Of a stretch of 64,000 bases of DNA, positions 43,566 to 56,418 are shown piece by piece. The stretch spans positions 248,001-312,000 of the forward strand of contig JAHBUW010000002.1 in assembly GCA_019637875.1 (NCBI GenBank), in the 5' to 3' direction. Position numbers and translations under genes: made by a program. The notes beneath the pieces are model-generated. The model made no database searches. It was not told where the DNA came from and worked only from the letters and a program-made list of their open reading frames with translations. The stretch is from Pseudobdellovibrionaceae bacterium (GTDB taxonomy: Bacteria > Bdellovibrionota > Bdellovibrionia > Bdellovibrionales > Bdellovibrionaceae). Positions within the stretch are counted from its first letter, which is position 1; each line of letters begins with the position of its first letter.

Positions 43566-44471
43566 ATGTCGCCGACCCGCCAAGTCCTCACGATCACGCT
43601 GTCTTTCGCCGGTTTCGCGGCGCTGTTCTTTCTGACCTTTTCGGCGCACGCCGAGGTCCGTCGTCTGGAAATTCCGCCCTCTTTAACGAACCCGGCGATC
43701 TTTCAAGCGACCAGTCCCCACCTCGCGCTCCGTGACGACGCGGTCGCCGCTTCGGGATTTCTGGTCATTACCCTTGGGGGAACGAACAGCCGCACTTCGG
43801 ACTTTCATCATGTCCATCAAGTCGCCTTAAGCGAAGGCCACGCGGTCCTCGGTATCGACTATCCGAACAACGTGATTTCGACCACCTGCCGGAATGCCGC
43901 CCCGAATTGCTTTGACCAGTTCCGCGCCGAAGTCGCCACGGGCGTCGCGGGCAGCGAGATCGTTCAAGTTGATGCCGTGAATTCGATCCTCAACCGCATT
44001 CAGTCGTTGGTTCACCTGCTCGCGAACCGCGACGAGCGCTGGGGCGGCTTCATGAAAAACCGAAGCGTCGACTGGAACAAAGTGATTCTGATGGGACACT
44101 CCCAGGGCGCGGGACACGCCGCGTATCTAGCGAAGTTCGTCGCGGTAAAACGCCTGGTTCTCTTCGCGGGACCGCAAGACGCGCATGCCGATGAAGTCGC
44201 CTCATGGACCCATCTTCCCGGAAAAACTCCGCCTGATCACATCTTCGCGTTTCTGCATGCCAAAGATTTTTTCGACGCGAAACTTCAGCTGAAAGTGAAC
44301 GAAGCCCTGCACGAGGGGCGAAAGCTCGAGGTCTCGAAAGTCGACGCGACGACATCCGCTAAACTGAGCCACGTCATCGTTTCGGAACGTCCCGCCCAGG
44401 ACGGACATCACGCCGTTCTTTATCCCCCGAACGAGGACGTTTTCCGCGAACTTCTTGGCGCGGACTTATAA
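43566..44471 (+). CDS. Exported alpha/beta hydrolase
   Basis: 301 residues from ATG 43566, which starts a signal peptide (VLTITLSFAGFAALFFLTFS, ending AHA) with AAGGAAG ahead; the long upstream frame overlaps the HIT gene and is rejected. The nucleophile elbow is LMGHSQGAGHA (GxSxG). The early VLGIDYPN strand and a C-terminal His (GHHAVLYP) fit a catalytic triad. The Cys pair CRNAAPNC may be disulphide-bonded. The substrate is unknown. The end overlaps the convergent GNAT gene by 6 bases. Confidence 0.65.
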   Translation: MSPTRQVLTITLSFAGFAALFFLTFSAHAEVRRLEIPPSLTNPAIFQATSPHLALRDDAVAASGFLVITLGGTNSRTSDFHHVHQVALSEGHAVLGIDYPNNVISTTCRNAAPNCFDQFRAEVATGVAGSEIVQVDAVNSILNRIQSLVHLLANRDERWGGFMKNRSVDWNKVILMGHSQGAGHAAYLAKFVAVKRLVLFAGPQDAHADEVASWTHLPGKTPPDHIFAFLHAKDFFDAKLQLKVNEALHEGRKLEVSKVDATTSAKLSHVIVSERPAQDGHHAVLYPPNEDVFRELLGADL

Positions 44472-45614
44472 GCCCAAACGTTTTTTCATCGCGGCATCGG
44501 GACGCAAGCTTCCGGAACGGAAATCCAAAATCCGACGTCGCTCCGGGTTCGTAAAATAACTCAGATGCACTAAGGTCCCAAAAGTATCGGTCAGCTCCGT
44601 ACCGGTGATCACGAAGCCCTTTTTCATCTTCGGAATCAGAATCGCATTGTTCGTCATGTTGTGACGACTCCAGATCTTTTGAAATCCCTTATCCACAAGC
44701 TTGGACAAAGCCACATCCAGAAGACGTGAATACAGACCCCGACCGCGATGCTCTTTCAGAACGGCGGAGTTCACCATATAGAAACTGTCGCGGTTGTCTT
44801 GATATCCCCAACTCCATCCCGCAAGCTCCCCGTCTTTCAAGAGCAACAGGTATTGGGCATAAAAGCGGCGATAGTCTTGATTCAATTCACGCAACCGGGA
44901 TTTTTCGGCATCACTCAATAGATCCTGTGGGCGTACGATGATTTCATTCTCGTCGAAAACGGCCTCCATGGTCTTTTCCACTCGCGGCCAAAAATCGGTT
45001 TCCGAAACCCAGACGATGGTAAAACCTTCGGGAAGGTTTTCGTTGAACGCGTCCGCGACCGGCGGATTCAACAGCTTCACGAAGTAAAGCGTGTCGCGGG
45101 TCCGCCCCCGATCCACGCAATCATCCAACTGCCGAGCTTCGAATGAATATTGATTGCGACGCGCGACCGCCGCGGATTTTTCGTTACGCCCGTCACAAGT
45201 CAAAACCACACGGTGGAAGCCCAACTCTCGCGCCAATTCTTCGCCGCGCCGGAGCGCCTCGCTGACGAAGCCTTTCCCCGCGAATCTCGCGCCCATCCAG
45301 AAGCCCACATGACAGCTGCGATTCGCCCAGTCGATCGTGTGTAAACCGAACGAACCGATCATCTCGCCGGATTTCTTCTCGTAAACCGAGAAGTCGAAGT
45401 TGCGCCCCGTCTCCCACCAGTTGGTCGCGAGGGCCAGATAGTCCTTCGAATCGTCCACGGACTTCGTTTGTTCTTCCCACGGCATCCAAGGCCGCAAGTG
45501 CTCGCGGCTCGACTGAATCAAGGCGAACATCTCGCGCGCTTGGTTCACGTCGCGGGCGCGCAGGAGCAAACGTTCGGTTTCGATTTCACGGGGAGGTTTC
45601 GGAAAGATGACCAT
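44466..45614 (-). CDS. Tandem GNAT acetyltransferase
   Basis: 382 residues with two GNAT domains. The first (about 1-175) is RimJ/RimL-like: IETERLLLRARDVNQAREMF, GSFGLHTIDWANRSCHVGFW, FAGKGFVSEALRRG for the acetyl-CoA loop. The second (about 195-365) has YMVNSAVLKEHRGRGLYSRLLDVAL as its acetyl-CoA motif and MTNNAILIPKMKKGFVITG. Substrates could be ribosomal-protein N-termini, amino acids or small molecules; sequence alone does not say. Confidence 0.7.
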   Translation of the reverse strand: MVIFPKPPREIETERLLLRARDVNQAREMFALIQSSREHLRPWMPWEEQTKSVDDSKDYLALATNWWETGRNFDFSVYEKKSGEMIGSFGLHTIDWANRSCHVGFWMGARFAGKGFVSEALRRGEELARELGFHRVVLTCDGRNEKSAAVARRNQYSFEARQLDDCVDRGRTRDTLYFVKLLNPPVADAFNENLPEGFTIVWVSETDFWPRVEKTMEAVFDENEIIVRPQDLLSDAEKSRLRELNQDYRRFYAQYLLLLKDGELAGWSWGYQDNRDSFYMVNSAVLKEHRGRGLYSRLLDVALSKLVDKGFQKIWSRHNMTNNAILIPKMKKGFVITGTELTDTFGTLVHLSYFTNPERRRILDFRSGSLRPDAAMKKRLGL

Positions 45615-45650: not shown

Positions 45651-46442
45651 TCAGCTGGGGACGCGGCCGCGAGCGAAATCCTCGACTCCGGCGAGCGAAT
45701 AGCACTCTAGCATACTGCCTTCGAATTTCGAGAAACCCATGCGCATCAAGTTGAACCGGCGGATCAAGTCGACGATCCAAACGGGTATTTTACGCTCGCA
45801 CTTGAGTTCCAAGATCACGTTAACGCCCGGATACCCGAAGGTGTCCGGGTGATCGTAATTTAGCATCGTGCCATCATTCGGATCGACGTTATAACGAGTT
45901 TCTTCGCGGTAACAAAGCTGACGATCGAAGGTCACGCGGGCGTAGTCGTCCAACGTTGAAAGGTAGGCGCGACGACGGTACTGGGTCAGGATCATCGGGT
46001 GCGCATTGTAAGTCCGGATCAGGTTGACGAAATAGTCCGTATGTTTGTCCGCGCGCGGGTCGAAAGATCCCAACGCCTCCGGATTCAGGAAAACGTCGCT
46101 CCAATTCTCGAGGGGGACTTTTCCCCGACGTTTTTTGGAGAAATCGGCGATCTTTTCTTTCGTCTCGAAGTAATAGGGCGCTTTCGGTTTGTCCCCATAA
46201 GAACGCACGCGCAGACTGAAGCGCCCCGTGTCGTTCGCCTTGTTGCGCATGAAGAAAAAGTTCGGAGTTTCGAAATAAAGGCTGTTGATCGTGTAGAAAC
46301 CGTCGTGCGAAATCTGCGAGTAGTAGTCCATCTCGCAGAACATTTCGACGTAACGCGAGATCGGCTCGACCATCGAGAACGGAATCAGGTACTTCAATTC
46401 GTACCGCTCCAAAACTGAGGGTGAAACCGGCCCGATCGCCAT
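45651..46442 (-). CDS. VTC-domain polyphosphate polymerase-like protein
   Basis: 263 residues, all a VTC (CYTH/triphosphate-tunnel) domain: ERYELKYLIPFSMVEPI, INSLYFETPNFFFM, RFSLRVRSYGDKPKAPYYFETKEK, KKRRGKVP, RRRAYLSTLDDYARVTFDRQ and VNVILELKCERKIPVWI provide the basic and acidic tunnel residues. Eukaryotic VTC4 makes polyphosphate from ATP, and bacterial VTC proteins are predicted to do likewise. There is no SPX domain or membrane segment; the adjacent DUF4956 protein may supply the membrane part. It is the last gene of the four-gene operon, overlapping the TolC-like stop by one base. Confidence 0.82.
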   Translation of the reverse strand: MAIGPVSPSVLERYELKYLIPFSMVEPISRYVEMFCEMDYYSQISHDGFYTINSLYFETPNFFFMRNKANDTGRFSLRVRSYGDKPKAPYYFETKEKIADFSKKRRGKVPLENWSDVFLNPEALGSFDPRADKHTDYFVNLIRTYNAHPMILTQYRRRAYLSTLDDYARVTFDRQLCYREETRYNVDPNDGTMLNYDHPDTFGYPGVNVILELKCERKIPVWIVDLIRRFNLMRMGFSKFEGSMLECYSLAGVEDFARGRVPS

Positions 46443-47719
46443 TACAAGATCTTCCTTTGCGATTTCGAAAGATGGTTCGTCTCGGGCGCGCCGGCGATCA
46501 CCGACATCTCATGCAGGTAAACGACGAATAACGAGCGGATACGGTACTCCAAATCCAAAAGCTGTTCACGGGCCTCGAACCAGCCTTTTTGCAGTTCGAC
46601 CGCAAGCATGGGGTCTTGCCCCGCGATGCCCTGGCTCGCCCGGCGCATCTGCTCCGGGTTCATACGCTGCTGGCTCTCGGTCATGGTCTTGTGCAGATCC
46701 AAAAGGGTTTGCAGTTCGACCGAAGCGTTTTTCACTAAACGGTCCGCCTCGGAAGCCGTATCCCGGGCCTTCGCCTTTTCGCGCAGTTCTCGCGACAGCT
46801 TACTGACCTGCGACAGATCGGTGGCCTGCGTGAAGGGCAGGTTGATCGCAACCTCTAGGCCGTAAACCTTCTCGCGTTTATCCTGCTTCATCGAGATTTC
46901 GACGTGTTCCAGCCACTTTTCGTCTTTCGCCTTTTCGTACTCGATCTCGGCTCGGGTCACGGCCAGATCCAAGGTGGCCACTTGACCGCTCAACGTCTCG
47001 CCGTTCGCCGTGATGGCCGTCACGCGCCCACGAATGTCGTTCATATCCATGAGATCCGAAAGATTGAACGCCTCCGGCGTCCCCAAGGACAATTCGCGTA
47101 GCTCCGCCTGCAGATTGCGGTAATCCCTTTCGACGTCGGCCAATTTGATATCCAGCTTTTCGATGTCGTTTTTATTCTTCAGGTAAGATTTCAGCTCGGC
47201 GCGATCACGCCCGGCGGAATACGCCAGCGCCTGACTGGCTTTGCGCACCACCGCGGTCAGCTCCACCGCGTTTTTTCTTTTCTCGCGCAATAAGGCGATC
47301 CGCGAAATGAGGTCGTACTTCGAGGACAATAAGCGCGAAAGCATTTCGCCCTGGGCCGCGCGTTCATTGCGCTCCAACACGCGCTGAAGCTCCCGCGTGG
47401 TCACGTGCTCGCTGTAACCTTTTGGATACAACCGCAGTCCGAATTTGATGTCGTCCTGGGTCAGCTCTCCGCGATCGACGCGCAGATCCGCCTTCTGCAA
47501 GGGGTTCAGCGTATTGGCGTCGGTGACCAGCTTCACCGCTTCTTCGTGGGCGGTGACGCGCGGGTCTTTCCACACGGTTTTCAACACGTCTTCCGAAGTC
47601 GCCGCCCCCGCGCCCGAGGAGAGCAGCGATGCTGCGACGAAAAATTTGGACGAAGCGGTCGCTAAGAACCCGGAAAATTTCCGGATTCCCGCCGCTTTTT
47701 GCGGCTTATTTGCGGTCAT
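46442..47719 (-). CDS. TolC-like outer-membrane factor
   Basis: 425 residues with a signal-like N-terminus (FFVAASLLSSGAGAA, about 26-40) and long coiled-coil helices (KYDLISRIALLREKRKNAVE, DIEKLDIKLADVERDYRNLQ, TDLSQVSKLSRELREKAKAR), two repeats of a similar plan with VYGLEVAINLPFT as the likely barrel strand, the architecture of TolC-family proteins. It overlaps the HlyD-like gene by 14 bases and the VTC gene by 1, so all are co-translated. Sequence identity to classical TolC appears low. Confidence 0.65.
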   Translation of the reverse strand: MTANKPQKAAGIRKFSGFLATASSKFFVAASLLSSGAGAATSEDVLKTVWKDPRVTAHEEAVKLVTDANTLNPLQKADLRVDRGELTQDDIKFGLRLYPKGYSEHVTTRELQRVLERNERAAQGEMLSRLLSSKYDLISRIALLREKRKNAVELTAVVRKASQALAYSAGRDRAELKSYLKNKNDIEKLDIKLADVERDYRNLQAELRELSLGTPEAFNLSDLMDMNDIRGRVTAITANGETLSGQVATLDLAVTRAEIEYEKAKDEKWLEHVEISMKQDKREKVYGLEVAINLPFTQATDLSQVSKLSRELREKAKARDTASEADRLVKNASVELQTLLDLHKTMTESQQRMNPEQMRRASQGIAGQDPMLAVELQKGWFEAREQLLDLEYRIRSLFVVYLHEMSVIAGAPETNHLSKSQRKIL

Positions 47720-49538
47720 TGGAGTTCACACCGCTTTCCACGAGAGGAATACGCAAGAACTTGGCGGGCTGGTCCTTCAGATCGAAAGTCACGAAGAAGC
47801 TCGAATCTTCGGGATCAAAGGCGATCCCCTCGGGTTTCAGATCTTCGAAGGACTTCAGCTGTTCGGCCGTGATTTTACCCTCGGATTCCGACAGCCGCCA
47901 GATCGCTCCGCAGCCTTCGTGGTGACAGACCGTCGTCGCGTACATACGCCCTTTGACCCGGATCAAATCGCTCATGTGGTGGGGAGCGCCCGCCACCTGG
48001 CCGAAATCCACCCACTTCACGGAAGAAAGCTGCGCGATCTCGAGGTTCTTCGTTTTGAACATCCGGTCCACATCTTGGATGACGAGCATCAAAGTCTCTT
48101 TGGCAGAGCTCAGCGGCGTCTTGAACCCGATGTACAAGAAGTTGTCCTCGACAAAGTGACTTTCGATTTCGAAGTCCGTCGCGCGCGCGCCCTTGAAGGT
48201 CGCTTTCAACTTCGCGTCCGACGAAGCGGCGATCATCTTCATCAGCATCGGCTTGAAGTTCAGCACTTCGGTTTCGGTCATTTCCAAACCCGCGCGCTTC
48301 GCCCGAACGAAAAGATTCCGCTCCGGTTTATCCTTGCCCTTTTTATTCAGCCCCTGCGACGTCATCATGTAAACGTAATCGCCGCTTTGGCTGATGGACT
48401 CCAGATCCGAGATTTCGCCGACGCCCGGGATGAAAAGCGTTTGATCTTCGATGCGACCGTCACGGTCGACCATAAACAAACTTGCCGATTTTTGTTTATC
48501 GGTGTCGTCGCTCACGACCAAAAACTTCTTCACGTCCGGAAGATAGATCACTCCCGAGGGCTCGAAATCGAAACGACGTTCCAGCTGCGCCGGCATACGC
48601 ATCTCTTGCGGTTTGCCGTCAGCCTTCGCGGTCGAAGCGGGAGCCGCCGTCGCCGCGGTATTCGCCTTCGCCATTTCGGTCGCCGCGATCACGAGCGGTA
48701 GTTTGAACATTTCGAAGTCCGGCTTGATCTGGACCTTCTCGTTCATCAGCAATCCGCTGTGCTCGGGGATCTCGACGACGACTTCGCGTCCCCAGACTTG
48801 CTGGTTCGGATAAAGCGTTAGGCGCAGCGGCATCATGATGATGCGCGAGCCGACGCTGATGATACGTCCTTGGACGGGCTGGGTCGAAGACGTGACGGGC
48901 TTCACCGTGACCGTCCGACCGACCTCCAGTCGCGTATGCAAACTTTCATGGACGAAGCCTTCGACGAAAGTGGGACTCTCCGGCGACAGCGTCAACAGCG
49001 GCATGAAATTCGGAACTTTTTCGCCTTTTTTGTAATTCACCGCGCCGACGACCCCGTCGACTTCCGCGAAGACGTACAGATTCCGCTTCGCGCGCTCGAG
49101 CAAAGCCAGCTCTTCACGCAAATCCGCCGCGTCGACCATCAGCGGGTCGGCATCGCCGTCCTCGGAGGTCCCGTTGCTGACGAGGATATTCAAATGCTTG
49201 CGAACTTTCATCTCGGCTTCGATCTTTCCGAGCATCGAGCGCGTCAGACGGATCTTACCGTTGAGTTCGCTTTGATCGAGTTCGGCCAGCAGATCCCCAC
49301 GACGGACCACTTGTCCCGGCATGACGTGCAAACGTTTGATCTCGACGGGGTATTCGAAGGTGACTTGAAACTCACGCGAGCCCGAAACTCCCATGAAGCT
49401 CATGGACTCCGAGCTGAGGTAAAATCCAAAAACGATCACGCCGGTGAGCGCGACCAACCAGGACATCGCGATGATGCGATTGCCGGTACCGATGATGTCT
49501 TCTTGAACGATCGTGATGAGTTTTTTGATGGCGTTCAT
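47706..49538 (-). CDS. HlyD-like membrane-fusion protein fused to a beta-propeller-like domain
   Basis: 610 residues. The N-terminal membrane anchor (about 25-42) is followed by an HlyD/RND-adaptor region (about 55-290): FEYPVEIKRLHVMPGQVVRR and LLAELDQSEL (lipoyl half), a short coiled coil, FAEVDGVVGAVNYKKGEKVP and EGFVHESLHTRLEVGRTVTV. After an Ala/Thr linker (about 295-315) comes a 290-residue domain with FEPSGVIYLPDVKKFLVVSDD, DLESISQSGDYVYMMTSQG and PEGIAFDPEDSSFFVTFDL, the repeat style of DUF3616/SdiA-regulated propellers, placed in the periplasm. Such a fusion is unusual. It lies 3 bases after the DUF4956 gene. Confidence 0.7.
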   Translation of the reverse strand: MNAIKKLITIVQEDIIGTGNRIIAMSWLVALTGVIVFGFYLSSESMSFMGVSGSREFQVTFEYPVEIKRLHVMPGQVVRRGDLLAELDQSELNGKIRLTRSMLGKIEAEMKVRKHLNILVSNGTSEDGDADPLMVDAADLREELALLERAKRNLYVFAEVDGVVGAVNYKKGEKVPNFMPLLTLSPESPTFVEGFVHESLHTRLEVGRTVTVKPVTSSTQPVQGRIISVGSRIIMMPLRLTLYPNQQVWGREVVVEIPEHSGLLMNEKVQIKPDFEMFKLPLVIAATEMAKANTAATAAPASTAKADGKPQEMRMPAQLERRFDFEPSGVIYLPDVKKFLVVSDDTDKQKSASLFMVDRDGRIEDQTLFIPGVGEISDLESISQSGDYVYMMTSQGLNKKGKDKPERNLFVRAKRAGLEMTETEVLNFKPMLMKMIAASSDAKLKATFKGARATDFEIESHFVEDNFLYIGFKTPLSSAKETLMLVIQDVDRMFKTKNLEIAQLSSVKWVDFGQVAGAPHHMSDLIRVKGRMYATTVCHHEGCGAIWRLSESEGKITAEQLKSFEDLKPEGIAFDPEDSSFFVTFDLKDQPAKFLRIPLVESGVNSNDRK

Positions 49539-49541
49539 GGC

Positions 49542-50225
49542 TTAGACCTCGATGATCGATTCTTGCATCATTAAATTCACACCCTTGGCGCCCGGGATCT
49601 TCTGAATCGACTGCATCACCGAGTGATTCGTGGCCTGACCTTTAAATTTCAATTGGTAGGCGTAGTCCAGCAAATCCCCTTGTCCCATTTCGCGGCACGA
49701 GATCATTGCAAAGTGTTTGCAGTTCTCGTTGAGGACTTTTTCCAGTGCGCGCGCGCTTTCCTCATCACGCTTGAGGTTGATTCTTAACAAAGCGTCGAAT
49801 TGCGGTCCGTGCGCGAACGGCGTCTTCGACAGCACCAGCGTCGCCGCCACGAAACAGAACGCGCCGATCGCCGCGATCGCGTAGGCGTGAACGCCGGCCG
49901 CAAGGCCGATCGCGAGCGACGCGAAGATGAAGAACATATCGCGCGGGTCTTTAATATTCGTGCGGAAGCGCAGAATCGAGATCGCGCCGATCATGCCGAT
50001 CCCGCGAGCCACGTTATCGCCGATTGCCTGCATCGCCGTCGCGGTCAGGATCGGACACAGCACCAAGCAGTGCAGGAAGTTTCGTGAGTACGAAAGTCCC
50101 TGGAAGGTTTTGATGTAGAGAACCGCAATCACGGTTCCCAGCACGAAGGAAAGAAGGAAGGCGTAGAAGACCGACAGCAGGGTCGGATTCGCCATCGAAG
50201 TGCTCAGGACATTGAAATCGAGCAT
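49542..50225 (-). CDS. DUF4956 membrane protein
   Basis: 227 residues. The first 130 contain about four membrane helices (SVFYAFLLSFVLGTVIAVLY, FLHCLVLCPILTATAM, MFFIFASLAIGLAAGVHAYA, AIAAIGAFCFVAATLVL) with the GMIGAISILRFRTNIKDPRD motif characteristic of DUF4956 (MgtC-like). A soluble C-terminal domain of about 95 residues follows (INLKRDEESARALEKVL). DUF4956 genes often accompany VTC-domain genes in bacteria. It is the first gene of the operon and divergent from the L,D-transpeptidase locus. The 260-base spacer at 50226-50485 holds no gene and presumably both promoters. Confidence 0.8.
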   Translation of the reverse strand: MLDFNVLSTSMANPTLLSVFYAFLLSFVLGTVIAVLYIKTFQGLSYSRNFLHCLVLCPILTATAMQAIGDNVARGIGMIGAISILRFRTNIKDPRDMFFIFASLAIGLAAGVHAYAIAAIGAFCFVAATLVLSKTPFAHGPQFDALLRINLKRDEESARALEKVLNENCKHFAMISCREMGQGDLLDYAYQLKFKGQATNHSVMQSIQKIPGAKGVNLMMQESIIEV

Positions 50226-50485: not shown

Positions 50486-52267
50486 ATGAAACTGAAAGCG
50501 TTCAACTTGGCCCTTGTGTTACTCATCGGCGGAAGTTTCTCCGTCGCGCAAAACCAGAGTGTCACCACCATCGAAGAGTACAACAAATTGGTTCCGCACT
50601 GGGGAATCAGCTGGTCGCCCGGCAGTGGCGCGGTCAACGGATACTATCCGACCTTCTATACCGGCTTCGTCATGCGCCAGCAGTCGCCCGAAAAAATTCA
50701 CGTGCGCGTGGCCCGCGGGAACAACACTCGCGTCTCGGTCATCCTCGATGAGACGACCGTTTCGGACTACCTTTACGATCTCGCCGCACGTTACGCCTTC
50801 TACAATAAAGTGACCTCGGGTTCGGGCGCGATGCTCAACATCAACCCGAAAGGCGCGAAGTTCCTGCCCCAACTTTCTTACTTCAACCAAGTTCTCGAAT
50901 CCCGTGAATACGGCATTCTCGATTTCGTGAAGTCGGGCGGCCAGTCAGACGAAGCCATCTATCAAAAAGGCCTCGAAACTCTTTCGAAGCTGAATCCCGG
51001 CCGCGTGTTCCAGATCCAACTGGATCTGAAGAACGAATTCGCGAAATGGAAAGCGGACATCCAGCGCCGTTCGGGTGGCGACGCCGCGAAAATCACGAAC
51101 GACGCGAAGGCCGTCGTCACCGCGATCAACACCCTGGTGTGGGGCCGCGTGAACTACAACGCGAAACCTTCGGACGACGTCATGGCGAAGCTGAAAACGG
51201 CCGTCAGCCTGGCGATCGCTAACGCCGCGGACGACCAGTTCGTTCCCGCCGCGCTGGAGTTGTTCAAAGCGACGACCGGCACCAAATATCAAATCAAGGT
51301 GATGGGCGCGGACGGCAAGTTCACTTCGCCGATCCAGTGCTCGGCCGCTTCTTGCGTCTTGAGCTATCCCGAATTCTCGGCGGTTTACCCGACCGGATCG
51401 ATGGAAGCGAAGACTTCGGACGAATTCGGTAACCGCATCAACCTGTTCGCGACGCCCGGTCTGTGGCAGTTCCTGAACTACGCGGGTAAAGAAGTCGACA
51501 ACATCCGCAACGAGCCGCACTACGGCTTCATCCCGAAGATGGACTACGAAGGCATCGGCAACGGTTTCCACAATCCCGCCGTTCGTTTCTGGAATCCCGC
51601 CTCGGGCCTGAAACAAGCCCTGGGCATCAACTCGGCTCACAATACTTTGTGGGCGGTGAAACGCGGTGGCGTTTCGCACGGCTGCTTGCGTCTGCCCGCC
51701 GGCCACGTCTGGGAACTTCGTCAGATCTTCCCCGTTGAAAATTCGAAGATGACCCAAGTTTCCTTCTACGGAAACAATTCGGGCGACTTCGACGTCTATG
51801 ACATCGACGGTGACGGCACCGCGGAAGTTATGGGCGTTCAGTACCTGATTTCGTACGGCCTGCAAGGCTCGAACGGATTGGCCCGTCGCGAAGGTCAAGG
51901 CTTCGAAGTCAACGCGGACAAAAAACTCGAATTCTACCAAGACCTCTACGGTGCGCGTAACGTCTTCCGCACCACCGGAGACGGCAAATACATCTTCGCG
52001 AATCCGAAAGTCTCGGTTCAGTCTTACCTGGACTTCAAAAAGAAGAGCGTCGGGACCCGCATGGTCATGAACGGCGAGTACGAACTGTACGAGCAAGTTT
52101 ACGAGAAAGAAAAAGTCCAATTGTATTCGGTCGGCAGCTCGATGGGCACCACTGAAAAACTGAAAGTCCGTTTGATGGGTCGCGTGCGCGGTTGCGCTCC
52201 GAAGACCGACAAACAGGCGTGCGGACAAGCGGCTTTCGAACAAGAAGCTCGCGGATTGGTGCGCTAA
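50486..52267 (+). CDS. Exported YkuD-type L,D-transpeptidase
   Basis: 593 residues with a signal peptide (about 1-21, ending SVAQ). The catalytic motif is GGVSHGCLRLPAGHVWEL (S397, H398, G399, C400), with the upstream conserved His in the GNGFHNPAVRFW region, as in YkuD transpeptidases that make 3-3 cross-links or attach proteins to peptidoglycan. The first 270 residues are a helical domain of unknown type. After the catalytic part, about 150 residues include DVYDIDGDGTAEVMG, an FG-GAP-like calcium-loop pattern. Coupled to the next gene (1 base apart). Confidence 0.8.
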   Translation: MKLKAFNLALVLLIGGSFSVAQNQSVTTIEEYNKLVPHWGISWSPGSGAVNGYYPTFYTGFVMRQQSPEKIHVRVARGNNTRVSVILDETTVSDYLYDLAARYAFYNKVTSGSGAMLNINPKGAKFLPQLSYFNQVLESREYGILDFVKSGGQSDEAIYQKGLETLSKLNPGRVFQIQLDLKNEFAKWKADIQRRSGGDAAKITNDAKAVVTAINTLVWGRVNYNAKPSDDVMAKLKTAVSLAIANAADDQFVPAALELFKATTGTKYQIKVMGADGKFTSPIQCSAASCVLSYPEFSAVYPTGSMEAKTSDEFGNRINLFATPGLWQFLNYAGKEVDNIRNEPHYGFIPKMDYEGIGNGFHNPAVRFWNPASGLKQALGINSAHNTLWAVKRGGVSHGCLRLPAGHVWELRQIFPVENSKMTQVSFYGNNSGDFDVYDIDGDGTAEVMGVQYLISYGLQGSNGLARREGQGFEVNADKKLEFYQDLYGARNVFRTTGDGKYIFANPKVSVQSYLDFKKKSVGTRMVMNGEYELYEQVYEKEKVQLYSVGSSMGTTEKLKVRLMGRVRGCAPKTDKQACGQAAFEQEARGLVR

Positions 52268-52268
52268 T

Positions 52269-53654
52269 ATGAAATCCCTCTCGAAGATCCTCACACTGGC
52301 AACCGCGCTGACTTTGGTCGGCGCGCACGCCTTCGCAAATCCCGACTTAGTTAAGACCTTCAAGAGCCTCGAAACAAAAAGCAAAGGCCCCTTCGGCCTG
52401 AACATGCTGCAGGGCTCGCGCTCAAAGATCGGCGTCCTCAACGGGTCGCCGAGCGGCAGCTTCCAGTTCCAAGCCGCTTACCGCAATGAAATCGCGCAAA
52501 AGCTGGCGGACACTCACAAGTTCTACGTCGGCAACCTGTTCACCACCAACTATTACGAGCTGATGGGCGAATACGTTTACGGCAACCGCGATTCGAGCCA
52601 TGACCTGAATCACCAAGGTATGGCCAACATCGCTTCGCAAATCATGCCCAAGGCCGAGATCATCGTTCAGCACTGGGTACTCGAAAAGCACTACGTGCAC
52701 GCAAATCAGAACTCGCCCCTCGCTCGCGGCTTCCGCGTTCGCGGAATCAGCGGATCGGAATTCGAAGTCGAGTACGCACGTTACTTCCTGAATTTCTTCC
52801 TGACCGGCGTGCAAACCGATCAACAGTACCTGACCGCTTCGCTCCTCGCGAAAGGCAGCCCGGTCGCCGCTTCGAATTCGCTCGAGCGCGCGCGCAATCT
52901 GATCGCCCAACAGTACGATCAGTCCGTGCTTTCGCGCGGCGAGAAAGACCCGCTCACGCGTCGTCTTTACGCGCTTCGTAACGCGATCCATAATCAACTT
53001 TCGCAGTCGGTGATCGGACAGATCGACGCTTTCGTGCGCGACTACCCCCAGTACCGCAATGATTCGACCATCACCGAAATCCGCTCGATTCTGGTGGCCT
53101 ACTACGCCGTCAGCGCGAAGCGCGTGGCGGAAGCCGCTCAGAAAATCGGCGCGGCGAATATCGTGGCCGTCGCGAATCAGCTGCAAGCCGGTGGCAACAT
53201 GGCGGGCTTCGTTCAGCTGAGCCAACTGGTCGCGGATCTGCGGACCCAACTGACGACTCCCGGCGCGATCGCTTGGGAAAAGAAAACCGAAACTCTGTTG
53301 GTTCTGAACGCGGCATCGCAGTACTTGAACAAAGAGCTGAACGTCTTGAAGTCGGTTTCCGGCAAAGAGGCCTTCCAGGTCGTCGTCAACTTGATCTACT
53401 CGGAAGGGTTTTTGATCAAAGACAACTGGGAGTACTTCGCCGGTGAAATCGCAAACTCGGCGGACGCTTCGGCGGCCGGCGCGCAAATGCCCGACATCAT
53501 CGGTATTGCGAGCGATACGCTGACGCAGGCGTTTTCGCCCGCGTTGGATCAGTGGCTGATCGTTGAACCGAAAATGCAATACTTTATCGATAACACCATC
53601 AAGTCGTCGTCTTTGAACACGGCTTCACTCTTGACTGAAAAGATCAAAAGGTAG
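52269..53654 (+). CDS. Exported protein of unknown function, partner of the L,D-transpeptidase
   Basis: 461 residues with a signal peptide (MKSLSKILTLATALTLVGAHAFA, cut near 23). Mostly helical; SNSLERARNLIAQQYDQSV and RLYALRNAIHNQLSQSVIGQ resemble segments next to PEP-synthase-type domains, but no catalytic motif is seen. It starts 1 base after the transpeptidase stop and ends 6 bases before the ATP-grasp gene, so the three are one operon. I do not recognise the family. Confidence 0.6.
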   Translation: MKSLSKILTLATALTLVGAHAFANPDLVKTFKSLETKSKGPFGLNMLQGSRSKIGVLNGSPSGSFQFQAAYRNEIAQKLADTHKFYVGNLFTTNYYELMGEYVYGNRDSSHDLNHQGMANIASQIMPKAEIIVQHWVLEKHYVHANQNSPLARGFRVRGISGSEFEVEYARYFLNFFLTGVQTDQQYLTASLLAKGSPVAASNSLERARNLIAQQYDQSVLSRGEKDPLTRRLYALRNAIHNQLSQSVIGQIDAFVRDYPQYRNDSTITEIRSILVAYYAVSAKRVAEAAQKIGAANIVAVANQLQAGGNMAGFVQLSQLVADLRTQLTTPGAIAWEKKTETLLVLNAASQYLNKELNVLKSVSGKEAFQVVVNLIYSEGFLIKDNWEYFAGEIANSADASAAGAQMPDIIGIASDTLTQAFSPALDQWLIVEPKMQYFIDNTIKSSSLNTASLLTEKIKR

Positions 53655-53660
53655 GACGCA

Positions 53661-55238
53661 ATGAAACTCGTTCTGAAAAAACTCTCTCTTATCGTGTCGG
53701 TGGCGACCCTCGCGACTCTGGCAATGACCGGTACCGCTTACGCGGCCGCGAAAGTCATGAATCCCGGCGAAGCCACGGGACAACTGGTTTACTTGTCGGC
53801 GGACGACGTCTTGAAAGAGTCGCCCAAATATAAGTCCCTGAACCCCCTCTCGATCCCCGTTTTCGGTGAGATGCCGCTGGATATGTCGGTCGTCGCGGGC
53901 GCGATCACGCTGAAACAACAGAACCTGCTTTCGCACGTTCAGTTGAAGTCACGCGCACGCCACACGCCGAATTTGGACATATCGGGCCTCGAGGGCGGAA
54001 TCGAAAACGCCATGTTCAAAAACTTCCCCGACGGTTCGTGGATCCGCATGGTTCTGGGCGCCGACGGTTCGATCAAAATCGAAGCTTCGAACGAAGCGGC
54101 GGCGACCGCGGCTTACAATAAGAAAAAGACCGCGAAGGTGAATCTGGAAGCGGACGTGCAGACCAGCACGATCTTCCGCACGGAAGAGTTGGGTTCGCCC
54201 GATTTCGTCCGCGTTGGTTCCAAAGCGGCGAACTACGCCGAACTCGCGAAAGTCTTGAACACGGCTTCGCGCACCGTCGTGCGTCCCGGTTTCGGTATTC
54301 CGTTCTACTACTATGAAGAGTTCGTGAACGCGAACCCCAAGATCAAAGCGGCCATCGAAGCTTTGCTGCGTGATCCGCTCATGAAACGCGTCGCTAAGGT
54401 CGAGTATCGCGAAGCGAAGCTGAAAGCGATCCGCGATATGATGACTGCGACCGACGCGGTCATGAACGAAAAACTCGTCGACGAGTTGATCTCGCGCTTC
54501 GAACAAGTTCGCTCGAACAATCAACCCCGCAAAATGAAACTGCGCAGCTCGACCAACTCGGAAGATCTGCCCAACTTCAACGGCGCGGGTCTGTACACTT
54601 CCGAGTCGTACAAACCGGTCAACAAAGAGGGTAAAGAGAAAAAAGACGCGAAAAAACGCGAAAGCCTCAAAGAAGCCCTGCAAGTCGTTTGGGCGTCGGT
54701 GTGGAACCTTCGCGCTTATGACGAACGCGAGTTCTTCTCGATCCCCCACGCGCAGGTCCGTATGGGCATGCAGGTGAACCCCTCGTTCGCGAACGAAGGC
54801 GCAGATGGCGTCGTCGTCACCAAGAACATGGCGGCAGATCCCCGTTACCCCGGCTACGGCGTTTACATCGAAGCTCAACGCGGTGACGACCACAGCGTCG
54901 CGAATCCCGAACCCGGCGTGAAGCCCATGCGCGTCTTGGTGCTGGTCGACCAGAACGACAAACTGAACGTCGCGAAATACGACGTCAAAGTTCTGCAAAC
55001 TTCGAACATCGGTGACGACAACAAAACGATCTTGCCCAACGACAATCCGATTCCCGTGATGACGACCGAGGAACTGAAGGACCTCGTGTACCAATCGCTG
55101 AAGGCGGAAGCACACTTCGGCCCGACCCTGGATCCGCAGAACAAAAACTTCTCGCTCGATCTGGAATTCAAAGTGGACGCGGAAGACACCGGCAAACGTC
55201 AGGTCTACTTGAAACAAGCACGTCCCTACATCGACTAA
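53661..55238 (+). CDS. Exported PEP-synthase/PPDK N-terminal-type ATP-grasp protein
   Basis: 525 residues with a signal peptide (about 1-29, ending AYAA). From about residue 180 to the end it follows the PPDK_N nucleotide-binding domain: GSKAANYAELAKVL (family GGKxANLxEL), RPGFGIPFYYYEEF, KLRSSTNSEDLPNFNGAGLYTS (family RSSxxxEDLPxxSFAGxxxT), VVWASVWNLRAYDERE, and the final DLEFKVDAEDTGKRQVYLKQARPYID. The swivelling His and PEP domains are absent. An ATP-grasp phosphotransfer domain outside the cytoplasm is odd, since ATP is not expected there. A terminator follows. Confidence 0.75.
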   Translation: MKLVLKKLSLIVSVATLATLAMTGTAYAAAKVMNPGEATGQLVYLSADDVLKESPKYKSLNPLSIPVFGEMPLDMSVVAGAITLKQQNLLSHVQLKSRARHTPNLDISGLEGGIENAMFKNFPDGSWIRMVLGADGSIKIEASNEAAATAAYNKKKTAKVNLEADVQTSTIFRTEELGSPDFVRVGSKAANYAELAKVLNTASRTVVRPGFGIPFYYYEEFVNANPKIKAAIEALLRDPLMKRVAKVEYREAKLKAIRDMMTATDAVMNEKLVDELISRFEQVRSNNQPRKMKLRSSTNSEDLPNFNGAGLYTSESYKPVNKEGKEKKDAKKRESLKEALQVVWASVWNLRAYDEREFFSIPHAQVRMGMQVNPSFANEGADGVVVTKNMAADPRYPGYGVYIEAQRGDDHSVANPEPGVKPMRVLVLVDQNDKLNVAKYDVKVLQTSNIGDDNKTILPNDNPIPVMTTEELKDLVYQSLKAEAHFGPTLDPQNKNFSLDLEFKVDAEDTGKRQVYLKQARPYID

Positions 55239-55268
55239 GAAAACGTCTTCTAAAACCAGACGAACGTG

Positions 55269-55299
55269 AAAGGCACCCTTCGGGGTGCCTTTTGTTTTT
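55269..55299 (+). terminator. Rho-independent terminator
   Basis: Stem AAAGGCACCC / GGGTGCCTTT with a TTCG tetraloop, followed by a T-rich run, 30 bases after the exported ATP-grasp gene. It closes the three-gene operon. Confidence 0.9.
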
Positions 55300-55428
55300 G
55301 CGGTCCATCGGCTAGTCGATAAGACCTTTTCCGGCACAACGCCCGGGCCAGGATTCCCTTGCCCATCTTGTGAGAGCGGACCCCGCTGATAAAATTGTAA
55401 GCACAACATTAAGCTCATGGAGGAGCCC

Positions 55429-56418
55429 GTGAACTCACCGTTCGCAGTCCAGGATGGACTGAAGTGCCTCTTATTGTCCGCGATCGCCGTCGGCGCGATC
55501 TCGGCCCTGCCCATGGTCGCCACGGCGGCCATGCCCACCAACCCCGTTTCTGATCCGCAGTTCACCCGCCTGCCGAACGGTCGCGATCTGACCTCGATTT
55601 CAGTTAAAGGGTCGCGCCTGTATCTCGCCAAGGGCACCGGCACCGCGTTCGGCGCGAGCGCGAAAGCGGCGTACGCGAAGCTGAAAGCCGACTCGCAGTC
55701 GAATCCCGATCACCGCGTGCAATGGGTGCTGATGGATCTCGATGCCCATCAGGTGGTGGACATGAGCCTCGCGCACAACCGCAAAATCTTCGGCGCTTCC
55801 TCATCGAAGCCGTTCGTGGGCGCCGCGCTTCTGGATAAGCAAGGGGGTGACCTGAGCTCCTCGCAACTTCAGCTGATGTCCGACATGATCGTCGTCTCTT
55901 CCAATACCGCTTGGACCAATTTGCAAACTCAAGCCGGTGGCGGAAATTCGACCAAGGGTCGCGAAGTTGTCCATACCTTCACCCAACGCATGGGTTACGA
56001 AAGAACGCGCGGCTTCCAAGGTTACTGGGGAACGCTGCACGGCAATGAATTGACGGCTCACGAGTCCGCGGAGTTCCTGCACGATACCTACAAAGGAAAT
56101 TATCCCGGCGCCGAAACGCTGTGGAAGATCATGCACGCGTGCCGCACCGGTTCCAGCCGCGGCCGGAAATACATCCCTTCGAATATCTACGTCGGCGGCA
56201 AAACCGGCACCTACGACGGACCGACCGAGAACCCCGAAACCGGCAAGACGAAAAACCCCGACGGGTCCTCCTACCGCGTGGCCGTGCGCAATCATCTTCT
56301 GGTGTTCAACATTGGTGGACGGCAGTATGCGCTAACGATCCTCGCTGACACGGGTTCGGACGAGTCGGCCGCAGTGTTAGCGGGTGGATTGATCCGCGAA
56401 TACCTCGGCGTGAAGTAG
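55429..56418 (+). CDS. Exported serine hydrolase of the beta-lactamase/PBP fold
   Basis: 329 residues from GTG 55429, which has GGAGG 5 bases upstream; an ATG at 55417 would overlap that site. The signal-like segment is CLLLSAIAVGAISALPMVAT. Active-site motifs, numbered from the GTG: SxxK is S124-SS-K127 (GASSSKPF), SxN is SSN in VVSSNTAW, and KTG is in VGGKTGTYDG. All three motifs of class A beta-lactamase-like enzymes are present in order. Peptidoglycan-acting activity is as likely as beta-lactam hydrolysis; the class A Glu166 equivalent was not identified. Confidence 0.75.
   Translation: MNSPFAVQDGLKCLLLSAIAVGAISALPMVATAAMPTNPVSDPQFTRLPNGRDLTSISVKGSRLYLAKGTGTAFGASAKAAYAKLKADSQSNPDHRVQWVLMDLDAHQVVDMSLAHNRKIFGASSSKPFVGAALLDKQGGDLSSSQLQLMSDMIVVSSNTAWTNLQTQAGGGNSTKGREVVHTFTQRMGYERTRGFQGYWGTLHGNELTAHESAEFLHDTYKGNYPGAETLWKIMHACRTGSSRGRKYIPSNIYVGGKTGTYDGPTENPETGKTKNPDGSSYRVAVRNHLLVFNIGGRQYALTILADTGSDESAAVLAGGLIREYLGVK

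Follow-up and report, generated by a model that had tools for sequence, protein, structure and literature searches.

The locus described here raises the question of why a polyphosphate polymerase of the VTC type should be encoded in one tight unit with parts that could span the cell envelope, and whether the four proteins of this unit might act together. Bacterial polyphosphate is usually regarded as the cytoplasmic product of PPK1. In the window, by which we mean the whole stretch of 64,000 nucleotides that was analysed, the list of open reading frames places a VTC gene in a minus-strand unit of four genes spanning positions 45651-50225. The source is a Pseudobdellovibrionaceae genome of 3.98 Mb, whose closest named relatives are Bdellovibrionaceae MAGs. 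We put it at slightly better than an even chance that the four genes specify one machine, which would make an anionic phosphate polymer and export it during synthesis; in this reading we infer both the identity of the polymer and its export.

Gene layout and domain composition of the four-gene unit

In the order in which they are read, the members of the unit are as follows:

49542-50225, minus strand: DUF4956 inner-membrane protein, 227 aa, the first gene of the unit
47706-49538, minus strand: HlyD/CusB-type periplasmic adaptor with a C-terminal beta-propeller, 610 aa
46442-47719, minus strand: TolC-like outer-membrane factor of 425 aa; its N-terminus is probably a signal sequence (judged by eye)
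45651-46442, minus strand: VTC-domain (triphosphate-tunnel) polymerase, 263 aa, a single-domain soluble protein

The DUF4956 and adaptor genes are separated by a gap of 3 nt, the adaptor and TolC-like genes overlap by 14 nt, and the TolC-like and VTC genes overlap by a single nucleotide, with a shared stop and start in the sequence TAATG. The description of the locus in the initial annotation, as four same-strand genes with 3-base or overlapping junctions, is borne out by both the open reading frames and the sequence at these coordinates. A GNAT gene on the same strand (44466-45614), which lies 36 nt downstream of the unit, was considered as a fifth member and rejected because it is absent beside the cassettes of the relatives that were checked. 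Divergent from the unit lies a plus-strand cluster (50486-56418) whose four products are a protein bearing an SHGC motif that is L,D-transpeptidase-like, a second protein of 461 aa, a PPDK_N protein that seems to have a signal peptide, and a Beta-lactamase2 protein; members of three of the four families are likewise found beside the cassette in two other loci (L099 and L064).

The VTC protein matches the whole of the corresponding Pfam domain (PF09359, E 1.3e-38, profile positions 2-231 of 235). This domain fills the 263-aa protein: Pfam and a hydrophobicity scan revealed neither an SPX domain nor a membrane or hydrophobic segment in it, and it thus differs from the eukaryotic-type VTC complex, which has both SPX and a Vtc1-type membrane domain. 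A single-sequence search of the PDB with the window protein returned no match; profiles did find Vtc4, with an E-value of 7e-11 in HMMER for the yeast protein when the profile was built from 20 cassette VTC sequences. In the alignment, the Vtc4 residues R264, R266, K281, R361, R373, E426 and K458 correspond to R78, R80, K95, R157, R169, E212 and K239 of the window protein, and all seven of these tunnel positions are invariant in 20 of the 20 cassette VTC proteins. Three of them (R264, R266 and E426 in Vtc4) are conserved residues that were substituted for inactivation of the yeast enzyme (PMC9911596). Vtc4 K200 falls outside the aligned range; judged by eye, an ERYELKY motif with an invariant lysine (K17) is likely to be its counterpart. 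Structural models devoid of VTC tunnel residues had been named as grounds for abandoning the proposal; the residues are there, and their conservation supports polyphosphate synthesis from ATP as the predicted activity of these proteins.

The DUF4956 protein (PF16316, E 2.6e-14, 53.8 bits against a cut-off of 30.6) is the sole multi-pass membrane protein of the unit and is present as a single copy in the source genome. About three hydrophobic segments are seen in a simple scan, with more being possible, and there is a weak resemblance to MgtC (E 2.3e-5), a match that falls short of the cut-off. Across 27 loci, it is the most conserved of the four proteins, with a mean identity of 57%. We propose it as the candidate inner-membrane channel for the polymer.

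The second protein had been described as a HlyD-type adaptor with an extra C-terminal domain, and both parts of this description hold. It matches HlyD_3 (PF13437, E 8e-11) and HlyD_D23 (PF16576, E 1.9e-7) above the Pfam cut-offs; its profile matches MacA and EmrA, and it is anchored in the membrane by a single N-terminal segment (about residues 22-40) and has a short hairpin. The extra domain, at about residues 305-604, is a beta-propeller by fold match: in the model, these residues align best with YjiK (Z 19.8, rmsd 2.9, 222 residues) and additionally with numerous five-bladed propellers. The model of the full adaptor, made from two sequences, is of low confidence (pLDDT 52), with the propeller region faring better. 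In keeping with a propeller, the adaptors of relatives match the Pfam families DUF3616, Phytase-like and SdiA-regulated. The propeller is an optional, dispensable module, since it is missing from the adaptors of three loci (L081, L082 and L086) and occurs elsewhere as a separate gene. In the latter form it encodes a protein of about 300-320 aa situated away from the cassette (L076, 7125-8090; L077, L078, L080, L084 and L085).

The assignment of the third protein as TolC-like stands in part. The window protein itself has no Pfam hit to OEP (PF02321), and a profile of the TolC-like proteins compared by sequence with the PDB yielded coiled-coil noise only. In favour of the assignment, OEP is matched by 4 of the 30 positional orthologues (best E 6e-6), one of which, from L071, lies above the cut-off with 26.5 against 22 bits. 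The fold comparison points the same way: the model is weak (pLDDT 54), and its top 37 Foldseek matches in the PDB are all outer-membrane factors of the TolC/CusC/OprN/OprM type. Superposition of this same weak model on TolC gives Z 13.4 (rmsd 3.6, 202 residues), as against about Z 10 for unrelated helical proteins.

Recurrence of the unit and its exceptions

Loci were gathered from the VTC loci of 60 relatives and from an adaptor-profile search of the phylum (369 genomes), and their neighbourhoods were inspected. The four-gene set is intact in 30 loci, always on a single strand and in the fixed order DUF4956-adaptor-TolC-like-VTC, with further loci being cut by contig ends. We analysed 27 of the intact loci jointly; the other three are near-duplicates that agree with them. 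The cassette is shared by some 30 genomes of Bdellovibrionota, which belong to five families or more (f1, f4, f10, f12 and f20), and the adaptor-profile search of the 369 genomes recovers the adaptor-propeller protein at near full length in 30. When starts are taken from the longest open reading frames, each junction in 27 of the 27 intact loci falls between an overlap of at most 149 nt and a gap of 9 nt. This recurrent arrangement is not a matter of chance, since order, strand and tight spacing are repeated in the 27 loci and their three near-duplicates, and the four genes are conserved as a set throughout the 30 intact loci. Moreover, comparison of the four proteins by their matrices of pairwise distances gives correlations (r) of 0.90-0.96 across the 27 loci, for part of which shared species history accounts. 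Within one genus, the adaptor and VTC occur together or not at all: of its 24 genomes, 16 have both and 8 have neither, with the cassette of G200, which a contig end truncates ahead of VTC, being scored as present; several of the 8 cassette-free genomes are single-contig assemblies.

The adaptor and the TolC-like protein have folds of the efflux type, and the unit could on that account be read as a common tripartite pump for the efflux of drugs or metals, to which VTC is a bystander. We regard this as highly improbable, given that 30 loci invariably include VTC and DUF4956 and that there is no ABC, RND or MFS pump among the four genes and none recurs in their flanks. The reading as an ordinary efflux operon was rejected on these grounds. 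ABC-type ATPases were flagged near the cassettes of L018, L082 and L091 only, and the other multi-pass proteins flagged nearby do not form one recurrent family. The initial annotation had singled out, as a contrary case, relatives in which the adaptor and TolC-like pair accompanies an unrelated pump with VTC elsewhere. What we find is VTC as the fourth gene in the 30 intact loci, a result slightly weakened by two sets without an adjacent VTC, namely L069 and one on a Hymenobacter plasmid.

At L069, the DUF4956, adaptor and TolC-like genes are present and VTC is missing at the locus; the assembly has a contamination of 9%. On the plasmid of Hymenobacter volaticus (L121:3745-7000), an adaptor-like protein is followed by DUF4956 and then by a TolC family protein (OEP E 5e-41), and no VTC was found within 20 kb of this set. 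The Hymenobacter adaptor, annotated as hypothetical only and with no Pfam hit, was identified by visual inspection of its sequence. Coming from another phylum, this set supports DUF4956 as the inner-membrane part. As neither it nor L069 has an adjacent VTC, the adaptor and duct may handle a cargo other than the VTC product. A further irregular locus, L083, is an in-frame adaptor-VTC remnant that is probably the result of a deletion or an assembly error. Outside the phylum, the adaptor search covered plasmids and returned no match, and a DUF4956 search of viral contigs likewise returned none.

The sets lacking VTC bear upon an alternative in which the polyphosphate from VTC and DUF4956 is deposited within the periplasm or the cell, with the adaptor and the TolC-like protein serving as a structural bridge or as an exporter of some other cargo, such as protein or lipid. 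This would also fit the VTC-DUF4956 pairs that occur without an outer-membrane part in Gram-positives and beside CotH. It is at odds with the fixed gene order and the co-varying protein distances, as also with the observation that, in the phylum loci inspected, an adaptor of the cassette type that is uncut by a contig end always adjoins DUF4956, with the exception of one degraded fusion. On balance, we deem deposition unlikely. A storage role for VTC is in any case made less likely by the presence of PPK1 elsewhere in the source genome.

Proposed route of the polymer and comparison with known systems

If, as we favour, the four proteins form a single machine for synthesis and export, the following succession of steps is conceivable. 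The cytoplasmic VTC protein, which carries the requisite residues, would use the gamma-phosphate of ATP to build polyphosphate inside its basic tunnel. The growing chain would then cross the inner membrane via an oligomer of DUF4956, which would take the place of the Vtc1-type membrane domains found in the eukaryotic VTC complex. In the periplasm, the adaptor, recognisable by its fold, would link this inner-membrane channel to the TolC-type duct, while its propeller, likewise assigned by fold, may bind or trim the polymer. Finally, the chain would be released or displayed at the cell surface by the duct. Since the unit has no ABC ATPase or RND pump, polymerisation and membrane potential would supply the energy for passage. 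A parallel is offered by the yeast VTC complex, which couples synthesis to translocation such that the chain is fed into a membrane channel during its synthesis (PMC9911596). The more specific proposal of a pump-free tripartite exporter, in which VTC synthesis itself powers the passage of polyphosphate via DUF4956, the adaptor and the TolC-type duct to the surface, is one that we advance tentatively, with its chances lying somewhat short of even. As PPK1 can make storage polyphosphate in this lineage, the cassette would serve a role in the envelope or at the surface.

Each part of this scheme has a counterpart in known systems. The pairing of VTC with DUF4956 in bacteria, which the initial annotation had stated to be known, is confirmed by the literature (PMC7112168), and such pairs usually come with CotH. 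Those sets share with the cassette a VTC-type polyphosphate polymerase adjoining DUF4956; however, they have CotH and neither an adaptor nor an outer-membrane factor, whereas the cassette lacks CotH and has the adaptor and the TolC-type duct as fixed members. With the eukaryotic Vtc1/3/4 complex, the cassette shares the catalytic VTC (TTM) domain and its tunnel residues, and eukaryotic synthesis is coupled to membrane passage (PMC9911596). The cassette VTC, in contrast, has no SPX sensor or membrane domain of its own; DUF4956 would furnish the membrane part, and there is in addition a conduit spanning the envelope. Tripartite efflux and type I secretion systems, such as MacAB-TolC and HlyBD-TolC, likewise combine an adaptor with a TolC-type outer-membrane factor, but the cassette is without their ABC ATPase, or an RND or MFS component, and has DUF4956 as the inner-membrane partner and a polymerase as the cytoplasmic one. 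In synthase-dependent exopolysaccharide export, as in the alginate (Alg8/44/K/E) and cellulose (Bcs) systems, polymerisation is coupled to export via periplasmic and outer-membrane parts, and it is in this coupling that the likeness to our proposal lies. Those systems use a membrane glycosyltransferase and sugar nucleotides, whereas the cassette polymer would be derived from ATP by a tunnel metalloenzyme.

In the open-access literature, as covered for VTC with DUF4956, for DUF4956 by itself and for TolC-linked polyphosphate export, we found no description of the four-gene set. Hence, while the VTC-DUF4956 pairing is known, its envelope-spanning version without a pump or CotH appears to be new. 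The conserved combination of a polymerase with an envelope conduit makes the passage of polyphosphate across bacterial membranes testable by gene deletion, and DUF4956, a widespread family, gains a concrete proposed role in inner-membrane passage. Were the export proposal true, surface polyphosphate on members of the predatory Bdellovibrio group could act as a capsule, a metal trap or a phosphate donor for secreted enzymes.

CotH, secreted neighbours and other VTC loci

CotH kinase genes repeatedly flank VTC-DUF4956 loci, both elsewhere in the phylum and on a Planococcus plasmid, and Gram-positive Pel loci combine CotH with a polyphosphate polymerase and DUF4956 (PMC7112168). Together with the secreted proteins of two uncharacterised families that often adjoin cassettes, these associations lend themselves to another interpretation: VTC might provide secreted enzymes with phosphate chains to be attached to polysaccharide or protein, in which case the product would not be free inorganic polyphosphate. 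A like role is imaginable in the Gram-positives where VTC-DUF4956 stands beside the Pel polysaccharide genes. However, profile searches revealed no CotH in the source genome or in the four other cassette genomes tested, and the secreted neighbours have no match to Fam20C, HipA or CotH profiles. We therefore consider phosphate transfer of this kind to be quite unlikely.

The first of the two secreted families, A12, comprises proteins of about 454 aa (L018:8750-10111, L022:6643-7995 and orthologues). In the Bdellovibrio-like genus, its genes are usually convergent with the cassette and directly follow VTC, and all 16 genomes that have the cassette contain members, which the 8 cassette-free genomes lack. 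They have invariant DRIGN and DND motifs that look kinase-like by eye. The second family, A10, comprises larger proteins of about 1100 aa (L071:11166-14495, L072:10058-13510, L074:2611-6558 and others). In nine loci it adjoins the cassette on the same strand, on either side. A10 has no Pfam or PDB match and shows no similarity to CotH or A12. Its motifs, too, look kinase-like by eye, and we regard both families as putative kinases at most, there being no Fam20C, HipA_C or CotH profile match and no meaningful PDB match. A10-related proteins also flank other VTC loci (L028, L029, L107 and L113).

In two of these (L028 and L029, from G035 and G029), VTC-DUF4956 adjoins an MMPL/RND-type membrane protein and a UbiA prenyltransferase, an arrangement that might provide an alternative means of moving the product. 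In L117 and L118, VTC-DUF4956 is found near sugar-polymer genes, the neighbours in L118 being a bacterial sugar transferase, an O-antigen-ligase-like protein and CotH.
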